Of a stretch of 62,171 nt of DNA, positions 8,389-45,689 are shown piece after piece. The position numbers were made by a program, and so were the translations under genes. The notes below the pieces were generated by a model, which ran no database searches, was not told the DNA's origin, and saw only the letters and a program-made list of their open reading frames with translations. Positions within the stretch are counted from its first letter, which is position 1. Each line of letters starts with the position of its first letter. The stretch comes from an uncultured Lachnospiraceae bacterium. Lineage in GTDB: Bacteria; Bacillota; Clostridia; Lachnospirales; Lachnospiraceae. The DNA is taken from the NCBI GenBank assembly GCA_946491665.1, contig CAMLYL010000006.1:1-62171 (forward strand). The letters run 5' to 3'.

Positions 8389-8389
8389 A

Positions 8390-10761: not shown

Positions 10762-10763
10762 TG

Positions 10764-13222: not shown

Positions 13223-13292
13223 TTACAGTTCTGTCTGCGCGGCCGGACAGATCCGGCATTGCAATTTTGTTTAAAAATATGTGGAATGCGGG

Positions 13293-13338
13293 AATTGGCT
13301 CAAAGTTTCGATTTGCGGACTTTGAGCCAATTTTTTCC
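13293..13338 (+). terminator. Terminator after the methyltransferase gene
   Basis: AATTGGCTCAAAGT (13293-13306) pairs perfectly with ACTTTGAGCCAATT (13319-13332), followed by TTTTTT. Confidence 0.9.
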
Positions 13339-13397
13339 GGAAATATCCGGGAGTATGACTTTAGGAAAACAGACTTTTCTGAAAATTAATATTTTCA

Positions 13398-13426
13398 TTG
13401 CATGCAGCAATTTGTGATGGTATAAT
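13398..13426 (+). promoter_or_regulatory. Strong sigma-A promoter for the NSS transporter
   Basis: TTGCAT at 13398-13403, 17-base spacer, consensus TATAAT at 13421-13426. It lies 32 bases before the start codon and shows that the gene starts downstream of it. Confidence 0.75.
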
Positions 13427-13457
13427 CTCTCTAACTATGCAATGGAGGAGATTAGAT

Positions 13458-20752: not shown

Positions 20753-21778
20753 TCAGGTAGACTCCCGGATCACCAGCTTTGTGGGAAGGAGAAGAGGGGT
20801 TATCTGGGCAGACGGATTTCTGATCAGTTCCAGCAGCAGACGGGAACTCTGGATTCCCAGTTCCCGCCGGGGCTGTTCCACAGTTGAAATGGTAGGTGTG
20901 GACAGGGTGGCATACATGGTATTATCAAAACCAAATACCTTAATATCCTCCGGAATAGAAAAGCCCATGGACAAACCGGCTTTTATGGCTGCGTGGGTGT
21001 GTTTGTCCGACGTGGAAAAAATCGCGTCGGGCGGTTCGGCAAGACGGAAAAAGTGATGCGCAGTGGTCAGAATACGCTGATAGGAAAAGTCAGATACCTG
21101 TATCACGTATTCCGGCCGGACTGCCATGCCGTTTCCTACCAGCATTTCTTTATAAGCCCGGTAACGGTTCTGCACATACCGATAGTCGTATGAGGAGGAG
21201 AAAAAGGCTATTTTTTTACAGCCTGCGCCTATCAGATGCGCGATCGCTGCCTTGGAAACGGCATAATCATCTATCGAAACATAGGGAATTTTCGTATAAA
21301 ACGGATTGTATTCACTGCACTGTACTACAGGATATGCAGAATGCAGCTGTCTCAGAATATCTTCAGACAGCGGATACATAATAATAATGCCCGCAATCTG
21401 CAGAGATGCACAGTAATTGAAAAAGGAAAACATGGTGCTGCGCTGCGGAATCTCCTGAGTGACGATCATATGACAGTGCTCCTGCCGCAGATAATCTGTA
21501 ATTCCTTCCAGAATATCATTATAAAAAGGATTGGCCCAGGTGGGGAGACATACCAGAATCGTCGGGCTCGAAAGAGCGTTCCTTTTTCCCGGAATCTGGG
21601 AATTCTTTGATCTGGTGGATAAATCCTCCGGGCTGATCTGATGAACTGCGAATGCGTCCAGTATTTTATTTCTTGTTTTTTCTGTTACAATATTCGGCTG
21701 ATGAATCATCCGGGAGACTGTTGCCGGAGAGACTCCCGCGGTTTTTGCAATATCATAAATAGTAACTCTGGCTTTCAT
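20753..21778 (-). CDS. LacI-family transcriptional regulator
   Basis: 341-residue repressor. N-terminal HTH VTIYDIAKTAGVSPATVSRMIHQP (residues 4-27, read as TIYDIAKTAGVSPATVSR), hinge, then a periplasmic-binding-protein-like sensor domain (TILVCLPTWANPFYNDILEG; IDDYAVSKAAIAHLIGAGCKKIAFFS in parts) ending in the usual dimer region STVEQPRRELGIQSSRLLLELI. It is divergent from the sugar-import/deglycosylation operon and 358 bases from its first gene, so control of that operon in response to a sugar or glycoside is the natural inference. A palindrome at 21970-21986 is a candidate operator. Confidence 0.9.
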   Translation of the reverse strand: MKARVTIYDIAKTAGVSPATVSRMIHQPNIVTEKTRNKILDAFAVHQISPEDLSTRSKNSQIPGKRNALSSPTILVCLPTWANPFYNDILEGITDYLRQEHCHMIVTQEIPQRSTMFSFFNYCASLQIAGIIIMYPLSEDILRQLHSAYPVVQCSEYNPFYTKIPYVSIDDYAVSKAAIAHLIGAGCKKIAFFSSSYDYRYVQNRYRAYKEMLVGNGMAVRPEYVIQVSDFSYQRILTTAHHFFRLAEPPDAIFSTSDKHTHAAIKAGLSMGFSIPEDIKVFGFDNTMYATLSTPTISTVEQPRRELGIQSSRLLLELIRNPSAQITPLLLPTKLVIREST

Positions 21779-21969: not shown

Positions 21970-21986
21970 TTTGTTTCTGAAACAAA
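21970..21986. promoter_or_regulatory. Perfect palindrome, candidate LacI-family operator
   Basis: TTTGTTTC-T-GAAACAAA, perfect 8-bp arms around one base. Half-sites recur upstream (TGAAAC near 21836, GTTTCA near 21879). It immediately precedes a possible -35. Confidence 0.5.
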
Positions 21987-22136: not shown

Positions 22137-23339
22137 ATGAAAATGTGGAAAAGAATGTTAAGTCTGGGTCTTGCAGCTGCTATGTCAGGCGCGCTGCTGG
22201 CAGGATGTGGAAATGCGGCGCAGGAAAACGGCGGAAGCGCAGGTTCATCTGCCGAGGAAGAAGGCGCAGCGTCAACTGGCGGGGTTGAAGTGGAAGATAC
22301 TGGTTTCACCCCGGAAAATACTTATAAGATCGGCTACAACTATTATGGTCCCGGAGCTTATTCCATCACAACACTGGCAAACAACCAGGAATACGTGATT
22401 CAGTGTTTCGGCAGCGAATCCCAGTCTGTATCTGATGATTTCCAGGTGGACAAGATCGTACAGGATATTGAGAACATGATTTCCGCAGGCTGCGACGGAC
22501 TGATTGTATGGCTTCCGGCTGATAACCTGTATCAGACCGTGATCAATATGTGTGAGGAAGCGCAGATTCCTTACGTATTTGCAGATAAGGTTCCGTCAGA
22601 TCCCGATATTATCGCACAGCTTCAGGAGAGTGAGTACTTTGCCGGAGCAGTAGGACCTGCCAATGCAGAGTATGGAACACTGATTGCGGAATACGCTCTT
22701 GATCAGGGTTATACTTCCTGTATTATCTCTACCGGAGCACAGGGCGATCCTACAGATACTCCCCGTATTGAGGCTTTCACAGAGGCATTTGAAGCAGGCG
22801 GCGGTACAGTAGAGCAGGTAGTTTACACAGACAGTATGGATAATATGCAGTCTTACACAGAGAATGCGCTGGTAGCTTATCCCGATGTGGATTTTGTATA
22901 TGGTACAGGTTCTGATATGGGTATTGCTTCTGCGGCTGCAATCCAGAACCAGGGACTTGACGCAAAGGTTCTTGCATCCGGACTTGACTCCACAATTCTG
23001 GAGTATCTGGTTGACGAGGAGAATCCGGTTGAGTTTGTGAACGGCGATTACTGGGTTTCCGGTACCATGGCAACTGTTGCCCTTATGAATTATCTGGACG
23101 GCAACCCGCTGAGAGATGCTGAGGGCAATATGGTATTTGTAGACGATATTATGCCTTTCCAGGTAACTGCTGATACATATGAGCAGTTCAAGGCTACATT
23201 TATTGATAATCCCTGCTATTCTGCGGCAGAGATCCAGGCAATGAACGGAAAATACAATCCTGATTTCAACTATGACGCGTTCATGAGTGTAATTGACAAT
23301 TATTCCTTAGAGGAAAGAGCAGCAGCGGCAGCAGAATAA
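22137..23339 (+). CDS. Sugar ABC transporter substrate-binding lipoprotein
   Basis: Extracytoplasmic binding protein of the RbsB-like class (Peripla_BP_4), 400 residues. Lipoprotein signal: Lys-rich start, hydrophobic stretch and lipobox LLAGC (Cys near residue 23). The mature part starts with a Gly/Ser/Glu linker and has the family pattern YKIGYNYYGPGAY, AGCDGLIVWLPADNLYQTV, DFVYGTGSDMGIASAAAI. ATG 22137 follows GAAGGAGGAT; the longer frame from 22080 has no binding site. First gene of the operon. The protein is longer than RbsB (about 300), with an acidic C-terminal part, which fits binding of a ligand larger than a simple pentose. Confidence 0.9.
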   Translation: MKMWKRMLSLGLAAAMSGALLAGCGNAAQENGGSAGSSAEEEGAASTGGVEVEDTGFTPENTYKIGYNYYGPGAYSITTLANNQEYVIQCFGSESQSVSDDFQVDKIVQDIENMISAGCDGLIVWLPADNLYQTVINMCEEAQIPYVFADKVPSDPDIIAQLQESEYFAGAVGPANAEYGTLIAEYALDQGYTSCIISTGAQGDPTDTPRIEAFTEAFEAGGGTVEQVVYTDSMDNMQSYTENALVAYPDVDFVYGTGSDMGIASAAAIQNQGLDAKVLASGLDSTILEYLVDEENPVEFVNGDYWVSGTMATVALMNYLDGNPLRDAEGNMVFVDDIMPFQVTADTYEQFKATFIDNPCYSAAEIQAMNGKYNPDFNYDAFMSVIDNYSLEERAAAAAE

Positions 23340-23366
23340 TCTGACCGCAGAAAGGGGTAGACAAAG

Positions 23367-24350
23367 ATGTCTGTACAGAAATCCTTAAGTGTCGACCCGA
23401 AAAAGAGACGTCTCTATAACCAGATTCTGATTATCGCGATTGTTGCTGCGGCGTTTGTAGTCTGCCACTTTATTACAGGTGGCAGACTGCTTACCCCCAA
23501 TAACCTGCGGACGATTCTGACCCAGGTTACCTATCCGATGATTGTTGCTCTGGGCATGATGTTTATTTTTACGGGCGGTATGATTGATTTATCCATTGGC
23601 GCGCAGATTATTCTGGCGGCCAATATCGGCGCGGTGCTGGTAGAAGATTTCGGCCTGGGATATCCCGGTCTGATTATCGGTACTGTCATAGCAATGATTG
23701 TATGCGAGCTTCTGAGCGCTTCCTGCTCCGTGTTTCTTGGAATACCATCCTGGGTGGCAGGTCTGGGCGCGGCTCTGGTATTTGAAGCGATTGCGACGAT
23801 CTATATAAATAACCGGGCAAAAACGGCGGGGGCAGCAGTTGTTTATCTGGAGCACTGCCAGGGACTGGGAACTTTCCCTACGATCTTTATTATCGCCATC
23901 GCGGTATTTGTGGCGGCGTGGTTTATTTTCAACCGCACAAAGCTTGGTTTCAACCTGCGGGCCATCGGAGGCGGCGGTGAAGTTGCGGAAGCTATGGGGA
24001 TTAACAGGAAGAAAACCATTATGCTGGCGGCCCTGGTGGGCGCGGTTATTATTGCCATCGGCGCAATTACACAGATTTCCTATACGGGACGTTTTACACC
24101 GTCTGCAGGTATGGGCTCTTTGAACGGTATTTTCAAATCGCTGGCCGTAATTCTGATTGCCGGTTCCTTCTCCCGTATTTTTAATGACGCGGTAGGCTGT
24201 GTGATCGGTGCGTTTATTGTAGCAGGACTGTTTAACGTATTGACTCTGATGGGTGTACCCTCCGGTACCGGCCAGGATGTATGTCTGGGTATTGTGGTGC
24301 TTGTATGCGGTATTCTCTCATCGCTGGGATATAAGGGGGTTATGAAGTAA
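23367..24350 (+). CDS. Sugar ABC transporter permease (RbsC type), first
   Basis: Membrane subunit of the BPD_transp_2 family, 327 residues with about 8-10 membrane segments. Diagnostic pieces: YPMIVALGMMFIFTGGMIDLSIGA (read as MIVALGMMFIFTGGMIDLS) and the loop GLNLRAIGGGGE-like FNLRAIGGGGEVAEAMGINR that contacts the ATPase. Its stop codon TAA shares the A with the ATG of the ATPase gene, so translation is coupled. Two different permease genes flank the ATPase, so the channel is probably a heterodimer. Confidence 0.9.
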   Translation: MSVQKSLSVDPKKRRLYNQILIIAIVAAAFVVCHFITGGRLLTPNNLRTILTQVTYPMIVALGMMFIFTGGMIDLSIGAQIILAANIGAVLVEDFGLGYPGLIIGTVIAMIVCELLSASCSVFLGIPSWVAGLGAALVFEAIATIYINNRAKTAGAAVVYLEHCQGLGTFPTIFIIAIAVFVAAWFIFNRTKLGFNLRAIGGGGEVAEAMGINRKKTIMLAALVGAVIIAIGAITQISYTGRFTPSAGMGSLNGIFKSLAVILIAGSFSRIFNDAVGCVIGAFIVAGLFNVLTLMGVPSGTGQDVCLGIVVLVCGILSSLGYKGVMK

Positions 24351-25849
24351 TGGCAGAAGAGATGTTGCGTATCGAAGGTGTCAGCAAAAGTTTTGGCCCT
24401 ACCCTGGCAAATAAAGATATCAACCTTGTCCTGGAAAAGGGAATTCTGCTTGGCCTGGCAGGCGAAAATGGTTCCGGAAAATCTACGCTTGCTTCCATGG
24501 TATGCGGGATGCAGAAAAAGGACAGCGGTAAATTTTATAAAAATGGGAAAGAGTATGATCCTCATTCTCCGGCCGATGCGGCGGCTCACGGAATTTCCAT
24601 GGTCGTACAGGAGCTGGGAGTAGTAGGAAGTCTTCCGGGAATCATCAATATGTTCCTCGGAAAGATGGATAAATATAAAAAGGGACCTGCAGTGGATCTG
24701 GCGGGGATGAGGCGGGATGCCGATGCGGTTTTTGAAAAGTGGAATCTGCCGAAGGTGCCCCTGGATGTGCCGGCCGGAACGCTCTCCATTGAGCAGAGAA
24801 AGATCATGGAGCTGGCGCGGGCATTGATTACAGACCCGGATTTCCTGGTTCTGGATGAAATCTCCCAGGCGCTGTCACAGGATAACCGGAAGATTCTCTA
24901 TCAGTTTATTGAAAAATTCAAGTCGCAGGGAAGAACGATTCTGATGGTAACTCATGACCTGGAGGAGATGGTGGAGATCTGTGATCAGATCGCGGTGCTC
25001 CGGGACGGCGTGATTGTAGAGTGCAAAGAGGCGAAGGATTTTACCATGGATGAACTGAAACGGCAGATGATCGGCCGGGAGGTTTCCGGGGATTACTATC
25101 GTGACGACCAGAAGGAAAGCTATCAGGACGAGGTTGTCCTGGAGGTGAAGAATCTCAATGCTCCCGGAAAATGTGAGGATATTTCTTTTGAGGTACATAA
25201 GGGAGAGATTCTCGGCGTCTGCGGTCTTTCTGACGCAGGCATTCATGAACTTGGAACTGCGATTTTTGGTCTGGAGGAGCATACAGGCACTGTCTGTGTC
25301 AAAACTTCAGGCACTGTACTGAAACGTCCGGGAGATCTGGTAAAAACAAAAGGGGCATTTCTGTCTAAAGACCGTGACGCCAATGGTCTGATGCTGGATG
25401 CGGGAATCGGAGCAAATCTGGTGATCCCTTCCCTGGCAGAGCTTTCCGGACCGCTGTTTTTCTTAAGTCCGAAAAAGACGAGAGATCTGGCGGAAAAGGC
25501 TTCCAGAGAATTTGAAATCAAGTCCTCGGGACTGAATCATATTGTACGGCGGCTCAGCGGCGGTAATAAGCAGAAAGTAAACTTAAGCCGCTGGCTGGTA
25601 AAAGATCTGGATTATATTATTCTGGACTGTCCCACCCGCGGCGTGGATATCGGCGTGAAGGCGTATATCTACAGTGTGCTGAAGAAGGCCAAGGAAGATG
25701 GCAAGGCAATCATTATGATTTCTGATGAGCTGCAGGAGGCCATGGGAATGGCAGACCGTATTCTTGTTATGAAGGATCATAAGTTTGCGGCCATGCTTTC
25801 CAGAAACTGTGACTTCACAGAAGAAAAAATGATGGAGGTAATGTTGTAA
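24350..25849 (+). CDS. Sugar ABC transporter ATPase with two nucleotide-binding domains (RbsA type)
   Basis: 499 residues, two NBDs in tandem as in RbsA/MglA. NBD1 is complete: Walker A GENGSGKST, signature LSIEQRK, Walker B FLVLDEISQAL, H-loop VTHD. NBD2 has the usual degenerate Walker A of this class (CGLSDAGIHELG), an intact signature LSGGNKQK, but its Walker B reads YIILDCPTRGVDIG: the catalytic Glu is Cys427. The equivalent in RbsA is LDEPTRGVD. ATP hydrolysis by the NBD2 Walker B site may therefore be impaired. Overlaps by one base with both permease genes. Confidence 0.92.
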   Translation: MAEEMLRIEGVSKSFGPTLANKDINLVLEKGILLGLAGENGSGKSTLASMVCGMQKKDSGKFYKNGKEYDPHSPADAAAHGISMVVQELGVVGSLPGIINMFLGKMDKYKKGPAVDLAGMRRDADAVFEKWNLPKVPLDVPAGTLSIEQRKIMELARALITDPDFLVLDEISQALSQDNRKILYQFIEKFKSQGRTILMVTHDLEEMVEICDQIAVLRDGVIVECKEAKDFTMDELKRQMIGREVSGDYYRDDQKESYQDEVVLEVKNLNAPGKCEDISFEVHKGEILGVCGLSDAGIHELGTAIFGLEEHTGTVCVKTSGTVLKRPGDLVKTKGAFLSKDRDANGLMLDAGIGANLVIPSLAELSGPLFFLSPKKTRDLAEKASREFEIKSSGLNHIVRRLSGGNKQKVNLSRWLVKDLDYIILDCPTRGVDIGVKAYIYSVLKKAKEDGKAIIMISDELQEAMGMADRILVMKDHKFAAMLSRNCDFTEEKMMEVML

Positions 25850-26853
25850 TGAAAAGTAAAAAATTCAGATTTGATATTAACACATGGCTTCCCGTTTTGA
25901 TCTTCGTGCTGATTCTGGTGATTTTCAGTATTGCCACAGGAGGAACTCTTTTATCCTCCACGAACCTGCTGAATATTTTCAACCAGTCTGTAGCAACAAT
26001 ACTTGCAGCTCTGGGTATGCTGTTTGTCGCAGCCATGGGAGGCACAGATATTACCACCGGTGTTGTAGTGGCTCTTGCCGGCTGTTTCGGACTGATGGGA
26101 GCGGAGGCTTCCGGAAATTCCATCGTATTCATTATTATTTCTGTTCTGATCGGTATCGGATCCGGACTGCTGCTGGGATATGTGAACGCAAAGAGGAAGG
26201 TAAATTCCTTTATGGCTTCCCTGGCGCTGATGATCGCTTACCGTGCGGTTGTCAATCTGATCATGAGTAATAATGCCTACTATCTTCCGGACAATCTTTA
26301 TGTGCTGGACAATACGGGAGTTAAGGCAGTTATTCTGGTAATTATGGTGGTTGTGATCATCTATATCTGGAGATTTACCAGATTTGGCAATTATGTCAGA
26401 GGCATCGGTGAGAATGAAGTAGCCATGAAGTTTGCCGGTGTAAATGTGGACAGGGTAAAAATTGCCGCATTTGCAGTATCCGGTCTGATGGCAGCCATTG
26501 CGGGAATCTTCACAGTGGCCCGGCTGGGAGGAACCAGCAATACTATGGGATCCGGCTTCGAGATGAGAGTTATGATGGCTCTGTATATCGCGGGTATTCC
26601 GGTACAGGGCGGGGAAGGTTCCAAAGTTTATAAACTGCTCTTTGGCGCCCCGGCAATTATCATGCTGGAGAATGGTCTGGTTCTGTGCGGACTGGATGCC
26701 GGAGTGACGCAGCTGGTGCGCGGTCTTGTACTTCTCGGAGCAGTGGCTCTGACCAGTCAGCTTGCAAAGAGAATGGCTTATGTGGGACAGGAAGGCGCCC
26801 GCAACCAGAAGGATGATGCTGCCGGTGCAGCAGCAGGAAATGGAGGAAATTGA
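25849..26853 (+). CDS. Sugar ABC transporter permease (RbsC type), second
   Basis: 334 residues, about 9-10 membrane segments, BPD_transp_2 family. Recognisable stretches: NQSVATILAALGMLFVAAMGGTDI (part: ILAALGMLFVAAMGGTDIT), FGNYVRGIGENEVAMKFAGVN (part: GIGENEVAMKFAGVN) as the ATPase-coupling loop. It ends in a short Gly/Ala-rich cytoplasmic tail. Start codon overlaps the ATPase stop by one base, and the next gene starts 2 bases after its stop. Confidence 0.9.
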   Translation: MKSKKFRFDINTWLPVLIFVLILVIFSIATGGTLLSSTNLLNIFNQSVATILAALGMLFVAAMGGTDITTGVVVALAGCFGLMGAEASGNSIVFIIISVLIGIGSGLLLGYVNAKRKVNSFMASLALMIAYRAVVNLIMSNNAYYLPDNLYVLDNTGVKAVILVIMVVVIIYIWRFTRFGNYVRGIGENEVAMKFAGVNVDRVKIAAFAVSGLMAAIAGIFTVARLGGTSNTMGSGFEMRVMMALYIAGIPVQGGEGSKVYKLLFGAPAIIMLENGLVLCGLDAGVTQLVRGLVLLGAVALTSQLAKRMAYVGQEGARNQKDDAAGAAAGNGGN

Positions 26854-26855
26854 AA

Positions 26856-27989
26856 ATGAAAAACGGTAAATTACAGGTTGGAATTATCGGATGCGGAGGA
26901 ATTGCAAACCAGAAGCATCTGCCCGCATTAAAAAATCAGGCGGATAAGGCTGACATGGCAGCATTCTGCGATATCATCGTGGAGCGGGTACAGAAAGCGG
27001 CGGAAGAATATGGAGTGGAAGGCGCAAAAGTTTATGAGGATTACAAAGAACTGCTGGCAGATCCGGAGATTGACGTGGTTCATGTGCTGACCCCCAACGT
27101 GGCTCACTGCCCCATTACCTGCGATGCTTTTGCGGCAGGAAAACACGTTATGTGCGAGAAGCCCATGGCACACAATACAGAGTCCGCAAAGAAAATGATG
27201 GAGGCGTGGAAAGCTTCCGGAAAGAAATTTACCGTGGGCTATCAGAACCGTTTCCGCGTGGATACCCAGACTTTACATAAAGCCTGTGAGGCAGATGAGT
27301 TTGGTGAGATTTATTTTGCAAAGGCGCATGCTATCCGCAGGAGAGCGGTACCTACCTGGGGCGTATTCCCGGACAAATCCAAACAGGGCGGCGGTCCCCT
27401 GATTGACATCGGAACACACGCGCTGGATATTACACTCTGGTGCATGAACAATTACAAGCCGGTATCTGTTATGGGTTCTGTATTTGAGAAGCTGGGACAT
27501 TCCGAGCTGGCAACCCAGGGCAACATGTTCGGTCCCTGGGATCCGAAAACCTACGAGGTAGAGGATTCTGCGTTCGGATTTGTTAAATTCGAAAACGGCG
27601 CTACTGTATTTCTTGAGTCCTCCTGGGCTATTAACATGAAGGATTCCAGAGAGGCAGCCTGCACACTGTGCGGTACGAAAGCAGGAGCCGAGATTGTGGG
27701 AGCCATGTCAGGCGGCGGAGCAAGCAGCGGAAGAGAGTATGATCTGATAGTAAACGGCACCTATCACGGACAGCTTGTGGAGCAGAAGCTTTCTGAGGAA
27801 GGTGAAATCGCATTCTTCTCCGGCGAGTCTGCTGAACCGAAGGATCTGGAGTGTAAGCAGTGGCTGGAGTGTATTCTGAACGATACGGAGCCGGTTGTAA
27901 AGCCGGAGCAGGCGTTTGTAGTAACTCAGATTCTGGACGCGATCTATGAGTCTGCAAGAACAGGGAAAGAGGTCATCCTGAACAAATAA
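26856..27989 (+). CDS. Gfo/Idh/MocA-family oxidoreductase, first
   Basis: NAD(P)-dependent sugar oxidoreductase, 377 residues. Rossmann motif VGIIGCGGIANQKHLPAL at the N-terminus, the family signature CEKPMAHN with the catalytic Lys, and GGGPLIDIGTHALDITLW with the conserved Asp/His of the active site. This size and the segment GGGPLIDIGTHALD resemble, from memory, the DgpA/CarA-type enzymes that oxidise C3 of the sugar in C-glycosides; that is the proposed job here because C-glycoside deglycosidase-type subunits follow in the operon. ATG 26856 is preferred to TTG 26850 for its spacing to GGAGG. Confidence 0.88.
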   Translation: MKNGKLQVGIIGCGGIANQKHLPALKNQADKADMAAFCDIIVERVQKAAEEYGVEGAKVYEDYKELLADPEIDVVHVLTPNVAHCPITCDAFAAGKHVMCEKPMAHNTESAKKMMEAWKASGKKFTVGYQNRFRVDTQTLHKACEADEFGEIYFAKAHAIRRRAVPTWGVFPDKSKQGGGPLIDIGTHALDITLWCMNNYKPVSVMGSVFEKLGHSELATQGNMFGPWDPKTYEVEDSAFGFVKFENGATVFLESSWAINMKDSREAACTLCGTKAGAEIVGAMSGGGASSGREYDLIVNGTYHGQLVEQKLSEEGEIAFFSGESAEPKDLECKQWLECILNDTEPVVKPEQAFVVTQILDAIYESARTGKEVILNK

Positions 27990-28003
27990 AGGGGAGGCGC
28001 AGA

Positions 28004-28924
28004 ATGAAGTTAGGATTTGTAAGTGCGATTCTTGATCAGAGCAGTTATGAGGAAATGATAGATATCGCTGCGGATCTCGGATTTGAATGTGTGGAAGCGG
28101 CCTGCTGGCCCCGGGGAAAGGCGGAGCGCCGCTATGCGGGCGTAAGTCATATTGACGCGGAGCGTGTGCTGTCTGATGAAATGTATGCAAAGCATATTAC
28201 AGATTATGCGTCGGAGAAAAAGGTGGAGATATCTTCTCTGGCTTATTATCCGAATACGATGGATCCGGATCCGGTAAAACGGGCGGCTGCCGTGGAGCAT
28301 CTGAAAAATCTGATCCGGGCCAGCGCAAAGCTTGGAATCGGTATGGTTACGATTTTTATCGGAAGAGATCAGACGAAGACTGTGGAAGAAAATCTGGAGC
28401 TGGTGAAGGAAATATGGCCTTCTATTATAGAGACTGCCGAGTCTGAGGAAGTCCGTATCGGTATAGAGAACTGTCCGATGCTGTTCGGGACAGACCAGTG
28501 GCCGGGAGGGCAGAATCTTATGACAACGCCTTCCAACTGGAAGAAAGTGTTTGAGATTCTTCCCAGCAAATATCTTGGCATTAATTATGATCCTTCCCAT
28601 TTTGTATGGCAGATGATCGATTATATTAAACCGATTTATGAATTCAAAGATAAAATCTTTCATGTTCATTTCAAGGATATCAAGATTTATCCGGATCGGC
28701 TGCAGCAGGTGGGAATTATGGGATATCCTCTGGATTTCATGTCTCCGAAACTGCCGGGATACGGCGATGTGGACTGGGGAAAGTATGTATCCGCTCTGAC
28801 AGATATCGGATATGACGGGTACACCTGTATTGAGGTGGAAGATAAATTTTTTGAAGGAAGCCGGGAAAAGGTGATTGACAGTCTGAAACTCAGCAAAAAG
28901 TATATGTCACAGTATGTAATTTAG
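28004..28924 (+). CDS. Sugar phosphate isomerase/epimerase (xylose-isomerase-like TIM barrel)
   Basis: 306-residue TIM barrel of the AP_endonuc_2 family. Likely metal ligands follow the family pattern: Glu in IGIENCP, Asp/His in INYDPSHF, His in FHVHFKD and Glu in CIEVED. It differs from the two later TIM-barrel proteins of the operon: it lacks their E-V-H motif and is not followed by a beta-subunit gene. An isomerase or epimerase acting on a keto-sugar intermediate is the likely role; the substrate cannot be read from sequence. Confidence 0.85.
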   Translation: MKLGFVSAILDQSSYEEMIDIAADLGFECVEAACWPRGKAERRYAGVSHIDAERVLSDEMYAKHITDYASEKKVEISSLAYYPNTMDPDPVKRAAAVEHLKNLIRASAKLGIGMVTIFIGRDQTKTVEENLELVKEIWPSIIETAESEEVRIGIENCPMLFGTDQWPGGQNLMTTPSNWKKVFEILPSKYLGINYDPSHFVWQMIDYIKPIYEFKDKIFHVHFKDIKIYPDRLQQVGIMGYPLDFMSPKLPGYGDVDWGKYVSALTDIGYDGYTCIEVEDKFFEGSREKVIDSLKLSKKYMSQYVI

Positions 28925-28941
28925 ATGGGGAGGTATCAGGG

Positions 28942-30006
28942 ATGAGTATTAAATTCGGTATTATCGGCTATGGCTTTATGGGACACGAGCATCTGGCCAT
29001 GCTGTCTGATTTTGACGGAATCGATGTAACGGCAGTCTGCGATATTGAACCGGAACAGTTGAAGGATGTTCCCGAAGGGATCCGGACCTGTGTGGATGCG
29101 GAGGAGCTGATCCGGGACCCGGAAGTGCAGGTGGTGCTGATCTCTGCAAATAACAATCAGCATCTGAAGCTGGTAAAGGCTGCGGCAGAGGCGAAGAAAG
29201 ATATCATCTGTGAGAAGCCTCTGGCATTATCTTTGGAAGATCTGGCGGAGATGGAGCGTGTGGTTGCTGAGAACGGCGTAAAATTCACCGTTCACCAGCA
29301 GCGCCGGTTTGACCCGGATTACCGTATGATTAAGAAAGTATTTGACGAGGGGACTCTCGGAGATATTTATACGGTTCAGACCGGTCTGTACGGATATAAC
29401 GGAAATATGCATGACTGGCATGTTTATCCGGAGCAGGGCGGCGGAATGCTCTACGACTGGGGCGTGCATCTCATTGACCAGATGCTGTGGATGATTCCGG
29501 GCAGAATTACATCGGTTTTTGCGGATGTAAGAAATGTCATTAATGAGAAGGTAGATGATTATTTTAAAATACTTCTGATGTTCGAAAACGGGATTACGGC
29601 GGAAGTGGAGCTGGGAACTTATTTTCTGAAGGATGAGGATAAATGGTTTGAACGTCACTGGTTCATCGGCGGGAATAAAGGCTCCGCCTACGCTGACGGA
29701 TTTGAGCCGAAAGGGAAGCTGGTGCGTACGACATCACTGCTTACGAATGTCAGCGGTTCCAGAACCATGACAGCTGCCGGACCGACCCGATCCTTCGGGC
29801 CTCCCCGGGAGGGTCTGATTGTTTCCGAAGAGCTGAAACCGGCGGGAACCACTCACAGAATGTATTTTGAAAATTATGTAAAAGCTTACCGGGGAGAAGA
29901 GGAGTTTCTTGTGACTATTCCTCAGGTGAAACGTGTGCTGGCTGTTATGGAGGCTGCCAGAGAGTCAGCCAGAACCAGGAAATCTGTTGATTTCGAAGTG
30001 AATTAA
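28942..30006 (+). CDS. Gfo/Idh/MocA-family oxidoreductase, second
   Basis: 354 residues. Rossmann motif FGIIGYGFMGHEHLAML, signature CEKPLALS with the catalytic Lys, and GGGMLYDWGVHLIDQMLW with the active-site Asp/His. It is clearly divergent from the first oxidoreductase of the operon, which fits one enzyme oxidising the glycoside and the other reducing the released keto-sugar back to an aldose, closing the cofactor cycle. This division of labour is inference. Confidence 0.87.
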   Translation: MSIKFGIIGYGFMGHEHLAMLSDFDGIDVTAVCDIEPEQLKDVPEGIRTCVDAEELIRDPEVQVVLISANNNQHLKLVKAAAEAKKDIICEKPLALSLEDLAEMERVVAENGVKFTVHQQRRFDPDYRMIKKVFDEGTLGDIYTVQTGLYGYNGNMHDWHVYPEQGGGMLYDWGVHLIDQMLWMIPGRITSVFADVRNVINEKVDDYFKILLMFENGITAEVELGTYFLKDEDKWFERHWFIGGNKGSAYADGFEPKGKLVRTTSLLTNVSGSRTMTAAGPTRSFGPPREGLIVSEELKPAGTTHRMYFENYVKAYRGEEEFLVTIPQVKRVLAVMEAARESARTRKSVDFEVN

Positions 30007-30020
30007 GCGGGTGAGAAGTT

Positions 30021-30968
30021 ATGTCAAAGTATGCTTTTGGTGTTGATATCGGCGGCACCACGGTAAAAATGGGACTTTTCGATACGGAGGGAAATCTTCT
30101 GGACGCCTGGGAAATAAAAACCAGGACAGAAGATGACGGCCGGCATATCCTGGATGATATTGCGGGAAGTATGGAAAAGACCCTGGAAATCAAAGGAATT
30201 TCCAAAGAAGACGTCATCGGCGCGGGGATGGGTGTCCCCGGCCCGGTGGGCGCGGACGGAACTGTTTTCAGATGCGTCAATCTCGGCTGGAATGTTTTTA
30301 ATGTTGAAAAAGTGATGTCCGAAAAGTGCGGATGGAAGGTAAAAGTCGGAAATGACGCCAATGTGGCGGCTCTGGGCGAAATGTGGATGGGCGGCGGAAA
30401 AGGCTGCCGGAATATTGTCATGGTGACGCTGGGAACCGGAGTCGGAGGAGGCGTTATCATAGATGGAAAGATTCTTGCGGGAGCCCACGGCGCGGCCGGC
30501 GAAATCGGGCATATTCCGGTGCGTGATGATGAAAAACTTGCCTGCGGGTGCGGGAAGCATGGCTGCCTGGAGCAGTATGCTTCCGCTACGGGGATTGCAC
30601 GTCTGGCAAAGGAATATCTGGCGGAACATAAAACTGCGTCTGTTCTGCGCATGGCAGAGGATCTTACGGCGAAGGATGTATTTGACGCGGCGAAGCAGGG
30701 AGATGCCGCTGCGCTGGAGCAGGTAGAAAATTTCGGAAAAGTTCTGGGAAAAGCGCTGGCTTCGATATCCTGTGTGGCGGATCCGGAAGCTTTTGTAATC
30801 GGCGGAGGAGTCGCCAGGGCAGGACAGATCCTGATTGACGCTGTTCAGAAATACTACCGTCAGTATGCTTTCCATGCTGCCGGGAATGCGGAATTCAGGG
30901 CGGCAGTGCTTGGAAACAGCGCAGGTATTTACGGCGGAGTGAAAATGGTTCTTGCAGAAGAGGGATAA
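30021..30968 (+). CDS. ROK-family sugar kinase (glucokinase-like)
   Basis: 315-residue ROK kinase. ATP-binding VDIGGTTVKMG at the N-terminus, sugar-site NDANVAALGE, the ROK signature region TLGTGVGGG, and the zinc motif CGCGKHGCLEQY. It would phosphorylate glucose or a similar hexose released in the operon. A close paralogue lies at 49328-50266. Start ATG has GGGTGAGAAG upstream. Confidence 0.9.
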   Translation: MSKYAFGVDIGGTTVKMGLFDTEGNLLDAWEIKTRTEDDGRHILDDIAGSMEKTLEIKGISKEDVIGAGMGVPGPVGADGTVFRCVNLGWNVFNVEKVMSEKCGWKVKVGNDANVAALGEMWMGGGKGCRNIVMVTLGTGVGGGVIIDGKILAGAHGAAGEIGHIPVRDDEKLACGCGKHGCLEQYASATGIARLAKEYLAEHKTASVLRMAEDLTAKDVFDAAKQGDAAALEQVENFGKVLGKALASISCVADPEAFVIGGGVARAGQILIDAVQKYYRQYAFHAAGNAEFRAAVLGNSAGIYGGVKMVLAEEG

Positions 30969-31044
30969 AACAAGGATAAGAGGTAATCCCTGGAGGGATA
31001 CCTGTATGGGCGGAAATCAGCCCGAAAGAAGGAGGTAACTTATT

Positions 31045-31953
31045 ATGAGCGAAAAGAAGGGAACGCCCAGAAGAGGAATCTGTCTTTACAGCTATCATAA
31101 TCTTCTGGGAAAGACAATGACATTAGAGGACGCATTTGAGGAGATGTACGATACGGGAGCGACCTGTTTTGAATTTTTGACAAGCTATATTCCCAATTAT
31201 CCGAATCCGTCCCCGGAGTGGGTGGATAAATACTGGAGACTGTGTGAGAAATATAAGATGCAGCCCTCAGAACTGGGACACTGGGCGGAGAATCATCTTC
31301 ATCGCGGAAAAGGCATGAGTGATGAGGAAGTGGTGGAAGAACTGAAACAGGATTTCCGTCTGGCGAATCTTCTTGGCTTCAGGGCTTTGCGGACAAAGAT
31401 TACATGTACCAACGAGATGTGTGATCCGGAGCCGGGATGGCAGTCCTACATTGAGAAAGCGCTTCCTTATGCCGAAAAATACGATGTACGCATGCAGAAT
31501 GAAGTTCATTTGCCGACAACGCTTCATACGCCTCATATCCGTGATGAATATCTGGATTTTATTCACCGCACAAAAACAGAGCATTTTGGTTTCAATATTG
31601 ACTTCGGCACTTTCCAGTATAAAGCGGCAAAGGGAATGGAGGATATGACCTGGCTTGATTTTTCTGATATCACTAAACCGGAGGAAATCGTTGACTTTCT
31701 TCCCTACAGTTATGTGTGTCATGCAAAATTTACCTATATGAATGAGAATTTTGAGGAAGAAACGATTCCGTATCCGGAAGTAATTAAGCTGATGGTGGAT
31801 AATGGATGGAGCGGAGATCTTCTTTCCGAGTATGAAGGAGCCATCCGTTTTCATGCGGAAGAGGGACCGGATAAATTTGCCCAGGCAATGGTAGAGATTC
31901 CGGATCAGGTTCGCCGTCATCAGATTATGCTTCGCAATATTCTGGGATATTAA
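31045..31953 (+). CDS. TIM-barrel protein, candidate C-glycoside deglycosidase alpha subunit 1
   Basis: 302-residue xylose-isomerase-like TIM barrel. Likely metal ligands Glu153, Asp186, His226 and Glu262 are readable in NEVH, FNIDFGT, VCHAKF and LLSEYEG; His155, two residues after the first ligand, sits where a catalytic base would be expected. It is followed after 18 bases by a small DUF6379-type gene, the partner arrangement of alpha/beta C-glycoside deglycosidases (Dgp, Dfg and Car systems), which cleave the C-C bond of 3-keto C-glycosides with a divalent metal. GAAGGAGGTAAC upstream is a near-perfect ribosome binding site. Role by context and motif pattern, not by direct comparison. Confidence 0.75.
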   Translation: MSEKKGTPRRGICLYSYHNLLGKTMTLEDAFEEMYDTGATCFEFLTSYIPNYPNPSPEWVDKYWRLCEKYKMQPSELGHWAENHLHRGKGMSDEEVVEELKQDFRLANLLGFRALRTKITCTNEMCDPEPGWQSYIEKALPYAEKYDVRMQNEVHLPTTLHTPHIRDEYLDFIHRTKTEHFGFNIDFGTFQYKAAKGMEDMTWLDFSDITKPEEIVDFLPYSYVCHAKFTYMNENFEEETIPYPEVIKLMVDNGWSGDLLSEYEGAIRFHAEEGPDKFAQAMVEIPDQVRRHQIMLRNILGY

Positions 31954-31971
31954 GAGAAGGAGGACAGGAAG

Positions 31972-32409
31972 ATGGTAGAATTTCAGGCAATTCAGCAGCG
32001 CGGTTTTCATAATACATATGATAAGAACGGGGAAATTGACGGTTTTGAATTCCGTTTTGTTCCGAAATATTATAAAGGACTCTGGTTTACTCAGTGCCGT
32101 TTCGGAAATGTGGTTGTGGACGGCGAAGTTTATGACAGAGACGATATTATTTTTGAGTATGATGGTCTGGAGTACAGCCGGGAAGAAATGTTTGATCTGA
32201 AGAAATACTGGCAGTTCCGGACGCCTCTGATCTATAAGATCAAAAAGAAGGGCGGCCTGTCAATCGGATATCACGATGTGAGTCTTCAGTTTGGATGGGT
32301 ATTAAATTACAATGGAGCTCTGGAAGCTGAGTTCGACGGCAGCGGCCTTGGAAATATGGCTCATATGTTCGGGGTTGACAATAATCGCCGGATGCTGCTG
32401 TGCAGATAA
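31972..32409 (+). CDS. DUF6379 protein, candidate C-glycoside deglycosidase beta subunit 1
   Basis: 145 residues, no signal peptide, predicted beta-rich. Pattern shared with the second small protein of the operon (33579-33983): I-x-G-[FY]-E, YY[KR]G, DGE, [DE]-D-I, Y-x-[FW], PL, GGLS-x-G-x-H-x-[VI]-x-L. This pattern corresponds to the DUF6379 / C-glycoside deglycosidase beta family, whose members pair with a TIM-barrel alpha subunit and complete the active site. AAGGAGGACAGGAAG upstream of the ATG. Confidence 0.75.
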   Translation: MVEFQAIQQRGFHNTYDKNGEIDGFEFRFVPKYYKGLWFTQCRFGNVVVDGEVYDRDDIIFEYDGLEYSREEMFDLKKYWQFRTPLIYKIKKKGGLSIGYHDVSLQFGWVLNYNGALEAEFDGSGLGNMAHMFGVDNNRRMLLCR

Positions 32410-32487
32410 AAGGCAGGGCTGAGATATTGTAAATGGAGTCGGATGAGTTTTATAATAAACAATAAAAGGATTTATTGTGGATTCTCC

Positions 32488-32530
32488 GGAACAGTAAGAG
32501 CTGGGAGCCCGGATTCTCAGCTCTTGTTCC
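32488..32530 (+). promoter_or_regulatory. Mid-operon hairpin between the two alpha/beta pairs
   Basis: GGAACA-GT-AAGAGCTG (32488-32503) against CAGCTCTT-GTTCC (32518-32530), without a T run, in the 152-base gap that is the largest in the operon. It could be an RNA processing or stability element rather than a terminator. The upstream part (TTTATAATAAAC around 32450) is A+T rich and might hold a weak promoter. Confidence 0.45.
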
Positions 32531-32561
32531 ATTTGCAGAGGAAAGGAGGAAACGGAAACCA

Positions 32562-33566
32562 ATGATCAGAACGTGTGTAAGTCTTTACAGCTTACAGGAT
32601 GAATATCTGAATAAAAGAATGAATTTAAGAGATATTATGCATTTTGTGAAGGAAAACGGGGCGGAGGGTGTGGAAATCCTTCCGGATCAGATGCTGAAAA
32701 ATGCGCCGGATATTTCTGATGATACAGTAAAACAGTGGGAGCAGATTCTGGATGAGACCGGACTGAAGCCGGTGATTGCGGATGTGTTCCTGAACACGAA
32801 TCTTTATAAGAACAGAACCCTGACACGCAGGGAGTGTATTGACCTTCTGATTAAGGAAATCAAACAGGCGGCCCGTCTGGGGATCCATCTGATCCGCCTG
32901 GTATCCATGGTTCCTTACTGGGTCATCGAGCCGCTGCTTCCTTATTGTGAGAAATACGATGTGGCAATCGCTATTGAAGTACATGCGGCGATGGCTTTTG
33001 ATATTCCGGAGACGAAGGCTTTTATCGATGAGGTAAAGAGACTGAACTCCAGGTATGCGGGAATCGTTATTGACACAGGTATTTTCTGCAGACGTTTTCC
33101 CAGAGTTGTAAGAGCTTATGAGACATTCAACGGAACCAGTCCACAGGTATTTGATTATATTGACACATTGTTTGAAAAGGGAACCGACCTTCATGCGGTG
33201 CTCAGAGAAAACGGCGGGAAGTATCCCCCGGAGCTGGAGGCGGCCATACAGTCGGATCACGACAGAATGTTTGTGCCTCTCTGTGACGGATATGAAAATC
33301 TGGATTACAGTGTATTGGATGAGTATATGCCCTATATTAAGCATTTTCATTTTAAAATGTTTGAGATGACGCCGGAGGGACCGGAGTATTCCATGGATTA
33401 CAGGAGCCTGCTTCAGTATCTTCATGAACATGATTATGACGGATATGTGTCCACGGAATATGAAGGAAACCGTTTTACACTTCCGGGCCATAAAATGATG
33501 GAAAAAGAAAATGTTGCGGCACAGCTTTCGTACATCAGGGCGTGTCTGAAAGAGATTCAGGGATAA
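32562..33566 (+). CDS. TIM-barrel protein, candidate C-glycoside deglycosidase alpha subunit 2
   Basis: 334 residues, xylose-isomerase-like TIM barrel. Likely metal ligands Glu139 (IEVHAA), Asp171 (IVIDTG), His261/His263 (IKHFHFKMF) and Glu299 (VSTEYEG), with His141 again two residues after the first Glu. This E-V-H pattern is shared with the other alpha candidate but overall sequence is quite different. The next gene, 12 bases on, encodes its presumed beta partner. ATG 32562 is chosen because AAAGGAGGAAAC lies upstream; the longer in-frame start at 32475 falls in the hairpin region. Confidence 0.73.
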   Translation: MIRTCVSLYSLQDEYLNKRMNLRDIMHFVKENGAEGVEILPDQMLKNAPDISDDTVKQWEQILDETGLKPVIADVFLNTNLYKNRTLTRRECIDLLIKEIKQAARLGIHLIRLVSMVPYWVIEPLLPYCEKYDVAIAIEVHAAMAFDIPETKAFIDEVKRLNSRYAGIVIDTGIFCRRFPRVVRAYETFNGTSPQVFDYIDTLFEKGTDLHAVLRENGGKYPPELEAAIQSDHDRMFVPLCDGYENLDYSVLDEYMPYIKHFHFKMFEMTPEGPEYSMDYRSLLQYLHEHDYDGYVSTEYEGNRFTLPGHKMMEKENVAAQLSYIRACLKEIQG

Positions 33567-33578
33567 GGGGGCGGAATA

Positions 33579-33983
33579 ATGTTTGATAATAATGTTTTTC
33601 TGGAAAATACCTGTGTAAATGTCAGAGAGAATGAGCAGATCATCGGATATGAAATGCAGACCAATATCACATACTACAGAGGCATCCCGCTGTCCATGAT
33701 CGAATATATCAGAGTCAGTACCGACGGGGAAGAGGTTCCGGAGGAAGATATACGGATTTCTATTGACTGCAACGACTGGTTTACTCTGAAAGAGGCAGAG
33801 ACAGTAACGACTTATAAATGGGAATACGGAGATCCTCTTTATGTCCGTGTATTGCAGGAAGGCGGACTGTCAGAGGGAATTCATAAAATAAAACTGACCG
33901 TGGCGACGCGGACTGCGTATATTCCGGTTCCTCTGGAGGGTGTGAAGGAACGCGAGGTTATGATTGACTGGGAGGAACACTGA
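33579..33983 (+). CDS. DUF6379 protein, candidate C-glycoside deglycosidase beta subunit 2
   Basis: 134 residues, beta-rich, acidic. Aligns by eye with the first beta candidate over IIGYEMQ, YYRGIP, DGEEVPEEDI, YKWEYGDPLYV and GGLSEGIHKIKL. It lacks the Gly-rich C-terminal tail of the first. Its stop TGA shares an A with the ATG of the flavodoxin-fold reductase, so the two are translationally coupled. Confidence 0.72.
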   Translation: MFDNNVFLENTCVNVRENEQIIGYEMQTNITYYRGIPLSMIEYIRVSTDGEEVPEEDIRISIDCNDWFTLKEAETVTTYKWEYGDPLYVRVLQEGGLSEGIHKIKLTVATRTAYIPVPLEGVKEREVMIDWEEH

Positions 33984-34945
33984 TGGATAAGAAAAAAGTC
34001 CTGGGAATTTCTTTTGGAAGAAAGATGATGAATACAGATGTAATGATCAAAACTGCTCTGATGGAATGTGAGAAGGCCGGATGTGAGGTACAGTTCATTC
34101 GTGCGGATGATCTGGATATCAAACCCTGTACGGGCTGCATTTCCTGTGTGGTGGGAATGACTTCCGGGAGGGGAAAGGGAGGCTGTCCCATCAGGGATGA
34201 TTTTTATATCATCGACGAGGCGCTGATGGAGTGTGATGCGGTGATTGTGGGATCGCCCACTTATGTGCTGGGGCCTACCGGCCGTTTTAAATCAGTCTGT
34301 GACCGAATCGGACCTTCCCACGATATTACTTTCCGGAAAGCTGCCTATGAGGAAGGCATTGCGGCAGGAAAAGATCCGGAATTACTTCCGGATCCCAGAT
34401 CTTTTAAGAAGCGTGTCGGCGCGCTGCTTTCTGTTGGCGGCGCTATGACGAAAAACTGGCTGGCCTTTATGCTGCCGACCATGTACGAATTTACCATGTC
34501 CATGGGGATTGATGTGGTGGATATGCATGAGTATCACGGAGCCATGGCTCATGAGCATGTACTGGGAAATGAGGAGCAGATGGACCGCATGCGGAAAATG
34601 GGACAGAATATTGCCGCTGCGGTTCTGGGGGATTCCGAGGAAGAACGTACAAAATGGAGGGGCGAACAGGACGGCGTCTGCCCTGTCTGCCATTGTGATA
34701 TGCTGACAGTTTCGCCGGACAGAGAATCCGCAGAATGTCCTGTATGCGGCATCCGCGGTGAATTCCGGGTGGAGAACGGAAAGCTGATGGTGAGCTTCAG
34801 TGAGGAAGAACAGCGGCGTTCCAGACTTCACTGGGACGGAAAGCTGGAACATTCTACAGAGATCAAGACCCGGGCCGTGGGGCCGGGGCAGATTCCGGAT
34901 CTGAAAGCACGGAAAGCGCCGTATATCGGCTATGCAGAGAAATAA
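33983..34945 (+). CDS. Flavodoxin-fold NAD(P)H-dependent oxidoreductase with C-terminal Cys4 motif
   Basis: 320 residues. Residues 1-about 210: flavodoxin/FMN reductase fold with GISFGRKMMNTDVMIK, the Cys-x2-Cys of CTGCISCVV, and GSPTYVLGPTGRFKSVCDR. Residues about 230-262: CPVCHCDML and CPVCGIRG, a probable zinc ribbon. A flavin reductase closing a deglycosylation operon could act on the released aromatic aglycone or on a quinone; that is speculation. The multi-Cys tail is not usual for the NADPH-dependent FMN reductase family. It is the last gene before a strong terminator. Confidence 0.8.
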   Translation: MDKKKVLGISFGRKMMNTDVMIKTALMECEKAGCEVQFIRADDLDIKPCTGCISCVVGMTSGRGKGGCPIRDDFYIIDEALMECDAVIVGSPTYVLGPTGRFKSVCDRIGPSHDITFRKAAYEEGIAAGKDPELLPDPRSFKKRVGALLSVGGAMTKNWLAFMLPTMYEFTMSMGIDVVDMHEYHGAMAHEHVLGNEEQMDRMRKMGQNIAAAVLGDSEEERTKWRGEQDGVCPVCHCDMLTVSPDRESAECPVCGIRGEFRVENGKLMVSFSEEEQRRSRLHWDGKLEHSTEIKTRAVGPGQIPDLKARKAPYIGYAEK

Positions 34946-34980
34946 CACATTTATTTGCTGCTTATGATACCATAACAGAA

Positions 34981-35025
34981 AAGGAACTCTGCTGTGAATT
35001 ACAGTCACAGCAGGGTTCCTTTTCT
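34981..35025 (+). terminator. Terminator of the glycoside operon
   Basis: AAGGAAC-TC-TGCTGTGA and TCACAGCA-GG-GTTCCTT form a long stem with a 2x2 internal mismatch, followed by TTTCTT. Marks the end of the transcript that begins near 22.0 kb. The 35026-35224 remainder holds nothing clear. Confidence 0.85.
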
Positions 35026-43445: not shown

Positions 43446-45689
43446 ATGAGTATTGATGTAAACTGCACAGCGTGGAAAGGCTTTCACACAGGGGAATGGA
43501 GACATCTGGTAAATGTCAGGAATTTTATTCAGAAAAATTATACTCCCTACGAAGGTGACGAAGGATTTCTTACATCCACAACAGAGCGGACTGACAGGGT
43601 CTGGGAAAAAGCCCATGCGCTGATCGTGGAGGAGGTTCAGAAAGGAATTATTGATGTGGAGACGAATGTGGTTTCCGGCATTAATAATTTTGCTCCCGGG
43701 TACATCGATAAAGAGAATGAGGTAATCGTGGGGCTGCAGACGGATGCGCCCTTAAAGCGTATCGTAAATCTGTACGGCGGCATGCGGATGGCTACATCGG
43801 CTCTGAAACAATACGGATATCAGCTGAATCCGGAAATCGAGCGTCATTTCAGGCTTTACCGCAAGACCCATAATGACGGAGTGTTTGACGCATATCCGAA
43901 ACGCACCCGTCTTGCGCGCAGCGCCGGACTTCTTACCGGTCTTCCGGACGCTTACGGAAGAGGGCGGATTGTAGGAGATTACCGGAGAGTTCCCCTTTAC
44001 GGTACGGATTTTCTCATTGAGGAAAAACAGAAGGATCTGGATATGCTGGACGGCCCCATGACGGATGAGCAGATCCGTCTGCGGGAGGAAGTGCAGATGC
44101 AGATCCGGGCGCTGAAAGAGATGGCGGAAATGGCGGCGGGATATGGCTGTGATATTACTGTTCCCGCAGAAAATGCGCGGGAAGCGGTTCAGAACCTGTA
44201 TCTGGCATATCTGGCCGGCATCAAAGAAAATAACGGAGCAGCCACTTCACTGGGACGGACAGCTACATTTCTGGATATTTATATTCAGAGAGATCTTGAG
44301 CGGGGCATTCTCACGGAGCAGGAGGCGCAGGAACTGATTGACCAGTTTATTATCAAGCTGCGTATGGTAAGGCATCTGCGCACCCCGGAATATAATGAGC
44401 TGTTTGGCGGAGACCCTACCTGGGTGACAGAATCTCTTGGAGGCATGGGAAATGACGGCCGTACCCTGGTGACAAAGACTACATTCCGTTATCTTCATAC
44501 TCTGACTAATCTGGGGACGGCTCCCGAGCCGAACCTGACTGTACTGTGGAGTCAGAATCTGCCGGATGCCTTTAAAAAATACTGCGCAAAGATGAGTATT
44601 GATACCGACTCTATCCAGTATGAAAATGATGATCTGATGCGCCCTCTTTATGGAGACGACTACTGTATTGCCTGCTGTGTTTCCGCCATGAGCGTGGGAA
44701 AGCAGATGCAGTTTTTCGGAGCCCGGGCCAATCTGGCCAAGAGTCTGCTTTATGCCATAAACGGCGGTGTGGATGAGAAAAAGGGACTGAAGGTGATTCC
44801 CGGGGTTGAGAAAGATAATGACGAGGCGCTGGAGTATTCCAAAGTGCTTACAAATTATAAAAAAGTTCTGGCTTATGTGGCGGAGCTTTATGTGGATACA
44901 ATCAATATTATCCATTATATGCACGACAAATATGCTTACGAAGCCAGCCAGATGGCTCTTCATGATACCCTGGTGGAGCGTCTGGCCGCGTTCGGCGTAG
45001 CGGGGCTTTCCATTGCGGCGGATTCCCTGTCTGCCATCAAATTTGCGAAGGTAAAACCGATCCGCAATGAAGAGGGGATCGCAGTGGATTTTGAGGTGGA
45101 AGGAGACTTCCCCAAATACGGAAATGACGATGAGCGGGTGGATGATATCGCTGTAGAGCTGGTATCTTATTTCTCGGCGGAGCTGAAAAAGCATCCTCTT
45201 TACAGGAACGCAATACATACATTGTCGGCTCTTACGATCACAAGTAATGTCATGTACGGCAAGAAAACGGGATCTACCCCTGACGGCCGCAAGGCGGGAG
45301 AACCATTTGCGCCGGGCGCGAATCCCATGCACGGCCGGGACGAAAACGGAGCCCTCGCGTCTTTGAATTCCGTGGCGAAAATTCCCTACCGGGCAGTATG
45401 TCAGGACGGCGTTTCCAATACATTTTCCATTGTGCCGGGAGCATTGGGAAAATCCGTGGAAGAGAGAAAGGATAATCTGGTAACCATTCTTGACGGATAT
45501 TTTTCTCAGGGCGCCCATCATCTGAATGTAAATGTAATGGACCGTCAGGTGCTGCTGGACGCTATGGAACATCCGGAGCAGTATCCGACTCTTACAATTC
45601 GGGTATCCGGCTACGCAGTGAATTTCAACCGCCTCAGCAGAGAGCAGCAGCTGGAGGTGATTAAGCGGACTTTCCATGAGAGTATGTAA
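43446..45689 (+). CDS. pflB: Formate C-acetyltransferase (pyruvate formate-lyase)
   Basis: 747-residue glycyl radical enzyme that turns pyruvate and CoA into acetyl-CoA and formate in anaerobic metabolism. Active-site Cys410-Cys411 in IACCVS and the radical Gly722 in RVSGYAVNF near the C-terminus are both present, and the N-terminal [19 protein letters not shown] (part: [16 protein letters not shown]) is typical of true PflB, not of diol dehydratases. AAAGGAGACAGAGAC upstream of the ATG. Followed by a terminator at 45804-45837. Confidence 0.96.

Follow-up and report, generated by a model that had tools for sequence, protein, structure and literature searches.

The window, a stretch of 62,171 nucleotides from contig C6 of an uncultured gut Lachnospiraceae (assembly of 3.35 Mb in 171 contigs, estimated 83.94% complete), contains a cluster of genes that we interpret, with good confidence, as a LacI-controlled operon that would let the bacterium use plant C-glucosyl flavonoids completely, the most likely ones being C-glucosyl flavones. 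According to the reading-frame list and the profile searches, 13 plus-strand genes are packed into positions 22137-34945 in the order binding lipoprotein, permease, double ATPase, permease, GfoA, TIM1, GfoB, ROK, alpha1, beta1, alpha2, beta2 and reductase. The spacing between them is -1 to 27 nt, except between ROK and alpha1 (76 nt) and between beta1 and alpha2 (152 nt). A sequence-only reading of this stretch had proposed a C-glycoside deglycosylation operon with two small beta-type subunits, two oxidoreductases for 3-oxidation and an importer of its own. Its gene inventory, coordinates, divergent LacI gene and end terminator were all confirmed, and its count of twelve genes had to be corrected to 13, the number to which its own list adds up. 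The deglycosylation proposal itself held in the three points that carry it, the small proteins, their neighbouring alpha subunits and the oxidoreductases.

The strongest evidence comes from the two gene pairs alpha1/beta1 (31045-31953 and 31972-32409) and alpha2/beta2 (32562-33566 and 33579-33983). Both beta proteins matched PF19906 (CGDB, C-glycoside deglycosidase beta subunit) far over the curated cut-off of 27.6 bits (beta1, E 3.2e-22, 78.9 bits; beta2, E 2.2e-36, 124.6 bits), and none of the 14 control genomes had a match to this family. They are the sole CGDB genes detected in this incomplete genome, each directly 3' of a TIM-barrel alpha gene of the AP_endonuc_2 family. For alpha2 the ATG at 32562, with GGAGG upstream, is the most likely start and was preferred over a TTG at 32475. 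The best solved matches of pair 1 were the chains of the C-glycoside deglycosidase (CGD) EuCGD, 7bvs_A (DfgA) for alpha1 (E 1e-79) and 7bvs_B (DfgB) for beta1 (E 1e-23), with 48% and 35% identity over the printed stretches. Those of pair 2 were the P581a proteins DgpC1 (9m3b_A, E 1e-128, 60% identical) and DgpB1 (9m3b_B, E 8e-42, 55% identical). When alpha1, alpha2 and TIM1 were aligned against the printed stretches of the EuCGD, PuCGD and P581a alpha subunits, all seven residues of interest were found in alpha1 and alpha2, that is, the metal-binding ones (two Glu, Asp, His and Lys; E141, D173, H263, K265 and E299 of PuCGD) and the catalytic His and Glu (H143 and E301), whose roles are described in PMC8563793. 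In the same alignment alpha1 has no lid insertion and retains the long EuCGD loop, while alpha2 has the lid region. EuCGD cuts C6-glucosides and not C8-glucosides, and PuCGD the reverse (PMC8563793), so that pair 1, being of the EuCGD type, is probably C6-directed. The lid by itself does not indicate position, and pair 2 was therefore left unassigned in this respect. Altogether, the two pairs are supported as CGD eliminases with a predicted cleavage activity and a predicted alpha/beta complex. TIM1 was considered as a third CGD alpha subunit and discarded, since no CGDB gene lies behind it and its residue aligned with the catalytic His is Asn.

The genes upstream of the pairs fit the rest of such a pathway. 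GfoA (26856-27989) had its best solved match in DgpA (7xr9, E 6e-161) and also matched DgpA1 (9m3d, E 4e-145), the query of this comparison beginning at 26850 rather than 26856. GfoB (28942-30006) was closest to 9m37, the P581a DgpA2 in complex with isoorientin (E 7e-136). These matches support both as DgpA-type 3-oxidases, GfoA being a predicted NAD-dependent glycoside 3-oxidase (NAD, nicotinamide adenine dinucleotide), in line with the role that the sequence-only reading had given to the two Gfo/Idh/MocA proteins. The NAD of DgpA can be regenerated by 3-oxo-glucose (PMC11239390), so the cycle of oxidation and reduction encoded in the window could be redox-neutral. The ROK-family protein (30021-30968) passes the cut-off of the glucokinase subfamily TIGR00744 with 308.5 versus 260.35 bits. 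TIM1 (28004-28924), a TIM barrel of the AP_endonuc_2 family (PF01261), probably hydrates the product of the elimination, judging from its place in the pathway and from a weak match (E 3e-6, residues 192-279 only) to the 2-hydroxy-3-keto-glucal hydratase 8ro4, which we take to be AtHYD. PMC10628242 proposes such a series of steps, from oxidation through elimination and hydration to reduction.

The last gene (33983-34945) codes for a protein of the flavone reductase family (FMN_red) with the full-length fold, including the C-terminal domain. We did not name it simply FLR, after the enzyme of Flavonifractor plautii, since it belongs to a separate clade. A quick tree, some of whose branches are long, puts FLR with 15 relatives in one clade (100) and the window protein in another, of 41 rows (99). 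The surroundings of the two clades are also different, with no CGDB in the stretches fetched around 15 FLR-clade genes. Among 28 named loci fetched by similarity to alpha2, several of them on short contigs, the reductase lies directly behind beta2 in 24. The exceptions are L029 (Enterococcus pallens, no reductase), L031 and L034 (reductase present at another position) and L033 (no beta2 match). These loci have GfoA in 23 cases, TIM1 and GfoB in 19 each and ROK in 11, and a second pair resembling alpha1/beta1 (34-43%) was found in five (L007, L008, L009, L011 and L027), L007 being from the cultured relative Mediterraneibacter glycyrrhizinilyticus. A second search, which avoids the bias of fetching by alpha2, queried 397 family genomes with the reductase itself, scoring at most five candidates per genome, a number at which paralogues may be missed. 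Relatives with at least 50% identity appeared in 17 genomes (window included), and all 17 carry CGDB, compared with 35 of the 397 overall. A CGDB gene was at 10 kb or less from 12 of these 17 relatives, from 6 of the 23 in the next ranks and from 2 of the remaining 55, or 2 of 31 if only the CGDB-bearing genomes are counted among the rest (Fisher p 6e-6, uncorrected for kinship). From this linkage we infer a reductase subfamily associated with CGD genes. The window enzyme may act on flavones.

Some of these loci deserve a comment. The Enterococcus pallens locus, from outside the Lachnospiraceae, has GfoA, alpha2, beta2, GfoB, TIM1 and ROK from 8843-13438 onwards without the reductase and offers a natural comparison for the contribution of this enzyme. 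In L033 (Eubacterium plexicaudatum ASF492, about 10000-11800) alpha2 and the reductase have no beta2 match between them, possibly a broken pair. In L042 (genome G067, contig C1; 9775-14031 and on) a 71% relative of the reductase lies beside a distantly related sugar importer of the ATP-binding cassette (ABC) type, and the nearest CGDB is 76 kb off.

The importer set of the window was complete in the profile search. It consists of a sugar-type substrate-binding lipoprotein (22137-23339; Peripla_BP_4, PF13407, E 4e-26), two BPD_transp_2 permeases (23367-24350 and 25849-26853; PF02653, E 6e-23 and 9.5e-28) and a double ATPase (24350-25849; PF00005, two ABC_tran stretches, E 8e-31), and presumably corresponds to the CUT2(-like) type. 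At E 1e-5 the binding protein had no relative of solved structure, and at E 1e-50 or better it was present in 7 of the 397 genomes, window included. The idea that the operon has its own importer gained support from the four other genomes with binding proteins at least 40% identical (40-66%), all of which have a CGDB gene 1.1-7.6 kb away (distances taken by hand), and yet none of the 28 pair-2 loci has it. Two more genomes, with 29-34% binding proteins, have no CGDB on the contig. In genome G364 (locus L113) a LacI gene borders a run of binding protein, permease, ATPase, permease, GfoA and GfoB, behind which lies a convergently oriented pair with 88% identity to alpha1/beta1. The importer was thus rejected as a part of the pair-2 block, from which it is missing within the flanks covered, and appears to travel with other CGD clusters. 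These linkage patterns make the operon look like two joined modules, one with LacI, importer, Gfo and pair 1 and the other with pair 2 and the reductase, and their seam may lie in the 152 nt that separate beta1 from alpha2. This gap contains a promoter-like site (32427-32456, 10/12 matches), possibly an internal promoter, in a window where the scan gave 32 such sites versus 20 in shuffles. From its genomic linkage the importer is predicted to be dedicated to the uptake of C-glycosides. The trait seems to be patchy, as no CGDB was found in G159, the sole genome of the same genus in the draw (99% complete).

The LacI-family regulator (20753-21778, minus strand; PF00356 and PF13377) is divergent from the operon, and L113 and L115 each have a relative of it (53% and 56% identical) next to this importer. 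A search for 10-mers common to at least three of four stretches gave GTTTCWGAAAC. This 11-base inverted repeat lies between LacI and importer in the window (GTTTCTGAAAC, 21973-21983), in L113 and in L115, and is absent from the fourth stretch, the 240 nt upstream of the binding protein of L114. Gaps resampled with a first-order model showed this repeat in 2 to 4 of 10,000 trials (rates 0.0002-0.0004), and the window, with 0.01 matches expected, contained one. In 1.8 Mb of loci there was, besides duplicate copies of those stretches, one further match, of the form GTTTCNGAAAC (L073). A second perfect 13-base match in the genome (contig C32) falls within a reading frame of 305 residues and was not counted as a site. 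We regard GTTTCWGAAAC as a candidate operator for this LacI protein. At the other end the operon is closed by an intrinsic terminator (34978-35024, plus strand) with a 20-pair stem and a T-rich tail.

Put together, these parts suggest the following pathway. The intact glycoside would enter by the dedicated sugar-type ABC importer and be oxidised at C3 of the sugar by the DgpA-type oxidoreductases, whose bound NAD would be regenerated, as is known for DgpA, by turning the 3-oxo-glucose of an earlier turn into glucose. A metal-dependent alpha/beta eliminase would then break the C-C bond, pair 1 probably acting on C6-glucosides and pair 2 on others, perhaps at C8. TIM1 would hydrate the sugar product to 3-oxo-glucose, and after reduction of this to glucose the ROK kinase would add the phosphate. 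The released aglycone would be reduced by the flavone-reductase-family enzyme encoded directly behind pair 2. The sequence-only reading had considered the glycoside itself not readable. A best guess by association has emerged in C-glucosyl flavones, favoured by the family of the reductase, the isoorientin-bound DgpA2 matched by GfoB and the set of phloretin-hydrolase-family genes in the genome. This family (PF18089, DAPG/phloretin hydrolase) has 12 matches, 10 of them at E <1e-20 and 8 at <1e-50, on contigs C1, C89, C70, C14, C84, C50, C109, C2, C20 and C12 and, weakly, on C17 and C97. Among 150 genomes of the host's family 9 have any match (window included) and none of the others more than three, raising the question whether the host is a polyphenol specialist. 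By eye, several of these genes adjoin LysR-like or transporter-like frames, and the one on contig C1 (locus L099, about 2400-10500) is found among minus-strand frames resembling molybdenum-enzyme and dehydrogenase subunits. Furthermore, Catenibacillus decagia degrades C-glucosyl flavones to phenylpropionic acids (PMC11170127), indicating that the full route exists within the Lachnospiraceae.

Some alternatives have to be weighed against this. The aglycone might be of another class, such as the xanthone mangiferin, the isoflavone puerarin or an anthraquinone, with the last gene reducing that aglycone or another compound. GfoA is closest to the DgpA of the puerarin-degrading strain PUE, the reductase is outside the FLR clade, and CGDs are broad, EuCGD taking also a set of non-flavone C6-glucosides (PMC8563793). 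However, the full-length flavone reductase fold, the isoorientin complex matched by GfoB and the abundance of phloretin-hydrolase-family genes speak for flavones, and we consider another aglycone class unlikely, if worth keeping in mind. Somewhat less probable still is that the main substrates of one or both pairs are 3-oxo-O-glucosides, the operon serving O- and C-glucosides of flavonoids alike by a general 3-keto route. DgpA-type oxidases do act on O-glycosides (PMC11239390), an unrelated TIM-barrel eliminase carries out such a cleavage in Agrobacterium (PMC10628242) and DfgCD are O-glucosidases (PMC11170127), but oxidised O-glycosides decay without enzyme (PMC11239390; PMC12724307), which leaves little need for a CGD of two subunits, and the nearest solved relatives of both pairs are C-glycoside enzymes. 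A pathway for inositol, levoglucosan or a rare sugar with IolG/IolE-like enzymes, the alternative that the sequence-only reading had itself named as counting against it, has very little in its favour. It would account for the Gfo/Idh/MocA and TIM-barrel families and for weak matches to IolG, IolE, levoglucosan dehydrogenase and the rhizopine binding protein. Nevertheless, the equivalog cut-offs for IolG and IolE (TIGR04380 and TIGR04379) were not reached (117.3 and 137.8 versus 355; 38.3 versus 290), another score was 33.8 versus 420, and two CGDB genes do not fit such pathways. With scores so far under the curated cut-offs, the inositol, levoglucosan and rhizopine readings were rejected.

Several observations weigh against the use of C-glucosyl flavones as we propose it. 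The last gene product shares only about 32% identity with FLR and falls in a different clade. It keeps FLR residues G106, W149, H271 and I275, whose mutation hurts activity (PMC7862272), but W and H are present in all 87 aligned rows and are non-diagnostic, and these residues were not accepted as proof of flavone specificity. Five of the 17 close reductase relatives are more than 10 kb from CGDB or on another contig. The importer is found in 0 of the 28 alpha2-type loci, where the best ATPase reached 38% and the best binding protein 26%. The best solved match of TIM1 is an uncharacterised protein (2zds, E 5e-17), its putative hydratase role leaning on the weak partial match, and the position selectivity of pair 2 is not legible from sequence. 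Gene content and order, families, active-site residues, subfamily placement and the linkage of importer, reductase and CGD across genomes can be read from the DNA; activity, complex formation and transport are all predicted. A bolder version, which we offer as speculation with a small chance of being right, is that the last gene represents a new subfamily of ene-reductases coupled to C-C eliminases, reducing the flavone on leaving or still glycosylated and so pulling cleavage forward. In the same version the two eliminase classes would strip both sugars of 6,8-di-C-glycosyl flavones, for example cereal ones, the importer would be the first family dedicated to C-glycosides and LacI would be a switch reading GTTTCWGAAAC.

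Elsewhere in the window, one protein (18121-20559) joins an AraC-type DNA-binding domain to a GH39 glycosidase domain, and 43446-45689 codes for a glycyl radical enzyme (PFL-like, with a Gly_radical domain).

Diet and feed commonly contain C-glycosyl flavones, whose uptake by gut bacteria is an open question in the literature covered. The co-travelling binding protein, the conserved candidate operator and the reductase subfamily that accompanies one CGD class offer testable starting points for the study of uptake, of regulation and of what becomes of the aglycone. The cleavage chemistry is known, while that literature describes neither the composite operon, nor the linked importer and the candidate operator, nor a reductase subfamily tied to CGD genes. 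In the open-licence literature, to which the search was confined (subscription journals were outside its scope), we found no description of an importer for C-glycosides or of a flavone reductase linked to CGD, nor, by strain, protein names or PDB codes, a paper on the P581a structures.

Among known systems, the Catenibacillus clusters also belong to Lachnospiraceae with dgpA, dgpBC and FLR genes, but in the text available of PMC11170127 dgpA is apart from dgpBC, FLR is listed separately and no C-glycoside importer is named. That survey used identity limits of 31-33% and gave C. faecigallinarum as having a potential FLR and no DgpBC (PMC11170127). The record of L012 (Candidatus Scybalocola faecigallinarum, possibly not the surveyed genome) has a full GfoA-alpha2-beta2-reductase-GfoB block. 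Since alpha2 is just 27% identical to the PuCGD alpha subunit over the printed stretch, the alpha2/beta2 class may slip under such limits, and FLR calls made at 31-33% may include the CGD-linked subfamily. FLR itself (PDB 7d38; PMC7862272) differs from the window protein in clade and in the absence of CGDB from the fetched surroundings of its clade. AtHYD (PMC10628242) is, like TIM1, a xylose-isomerase-like TIM barrel at the same place in the pathway, although the match is weak and partial. DgpABC/PuCGD of the puerarin degrader PUE provides the nearest relative of GfoA and shares the lidded alpha type with pair 2, from which it differs in the low identity given above. The closest solved relatives of GfoB, beta2 and alpha2 are P581a DgpA2, DgpB1 and DgpC1 (PDB 9m37, 9m39 and 9m3b), a comparison made through the structures alone. 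Finally, DfgAB/EuCGD with DfgE of Eubacterium cellulosolvens, which acts on C6-glucosyl flavones, is like alpha1/beta1 lidless with a long loop, and to this arrangement the window adds a second pair, an ABC importer, a LacI regulator, a ROK kinase and a reductase.

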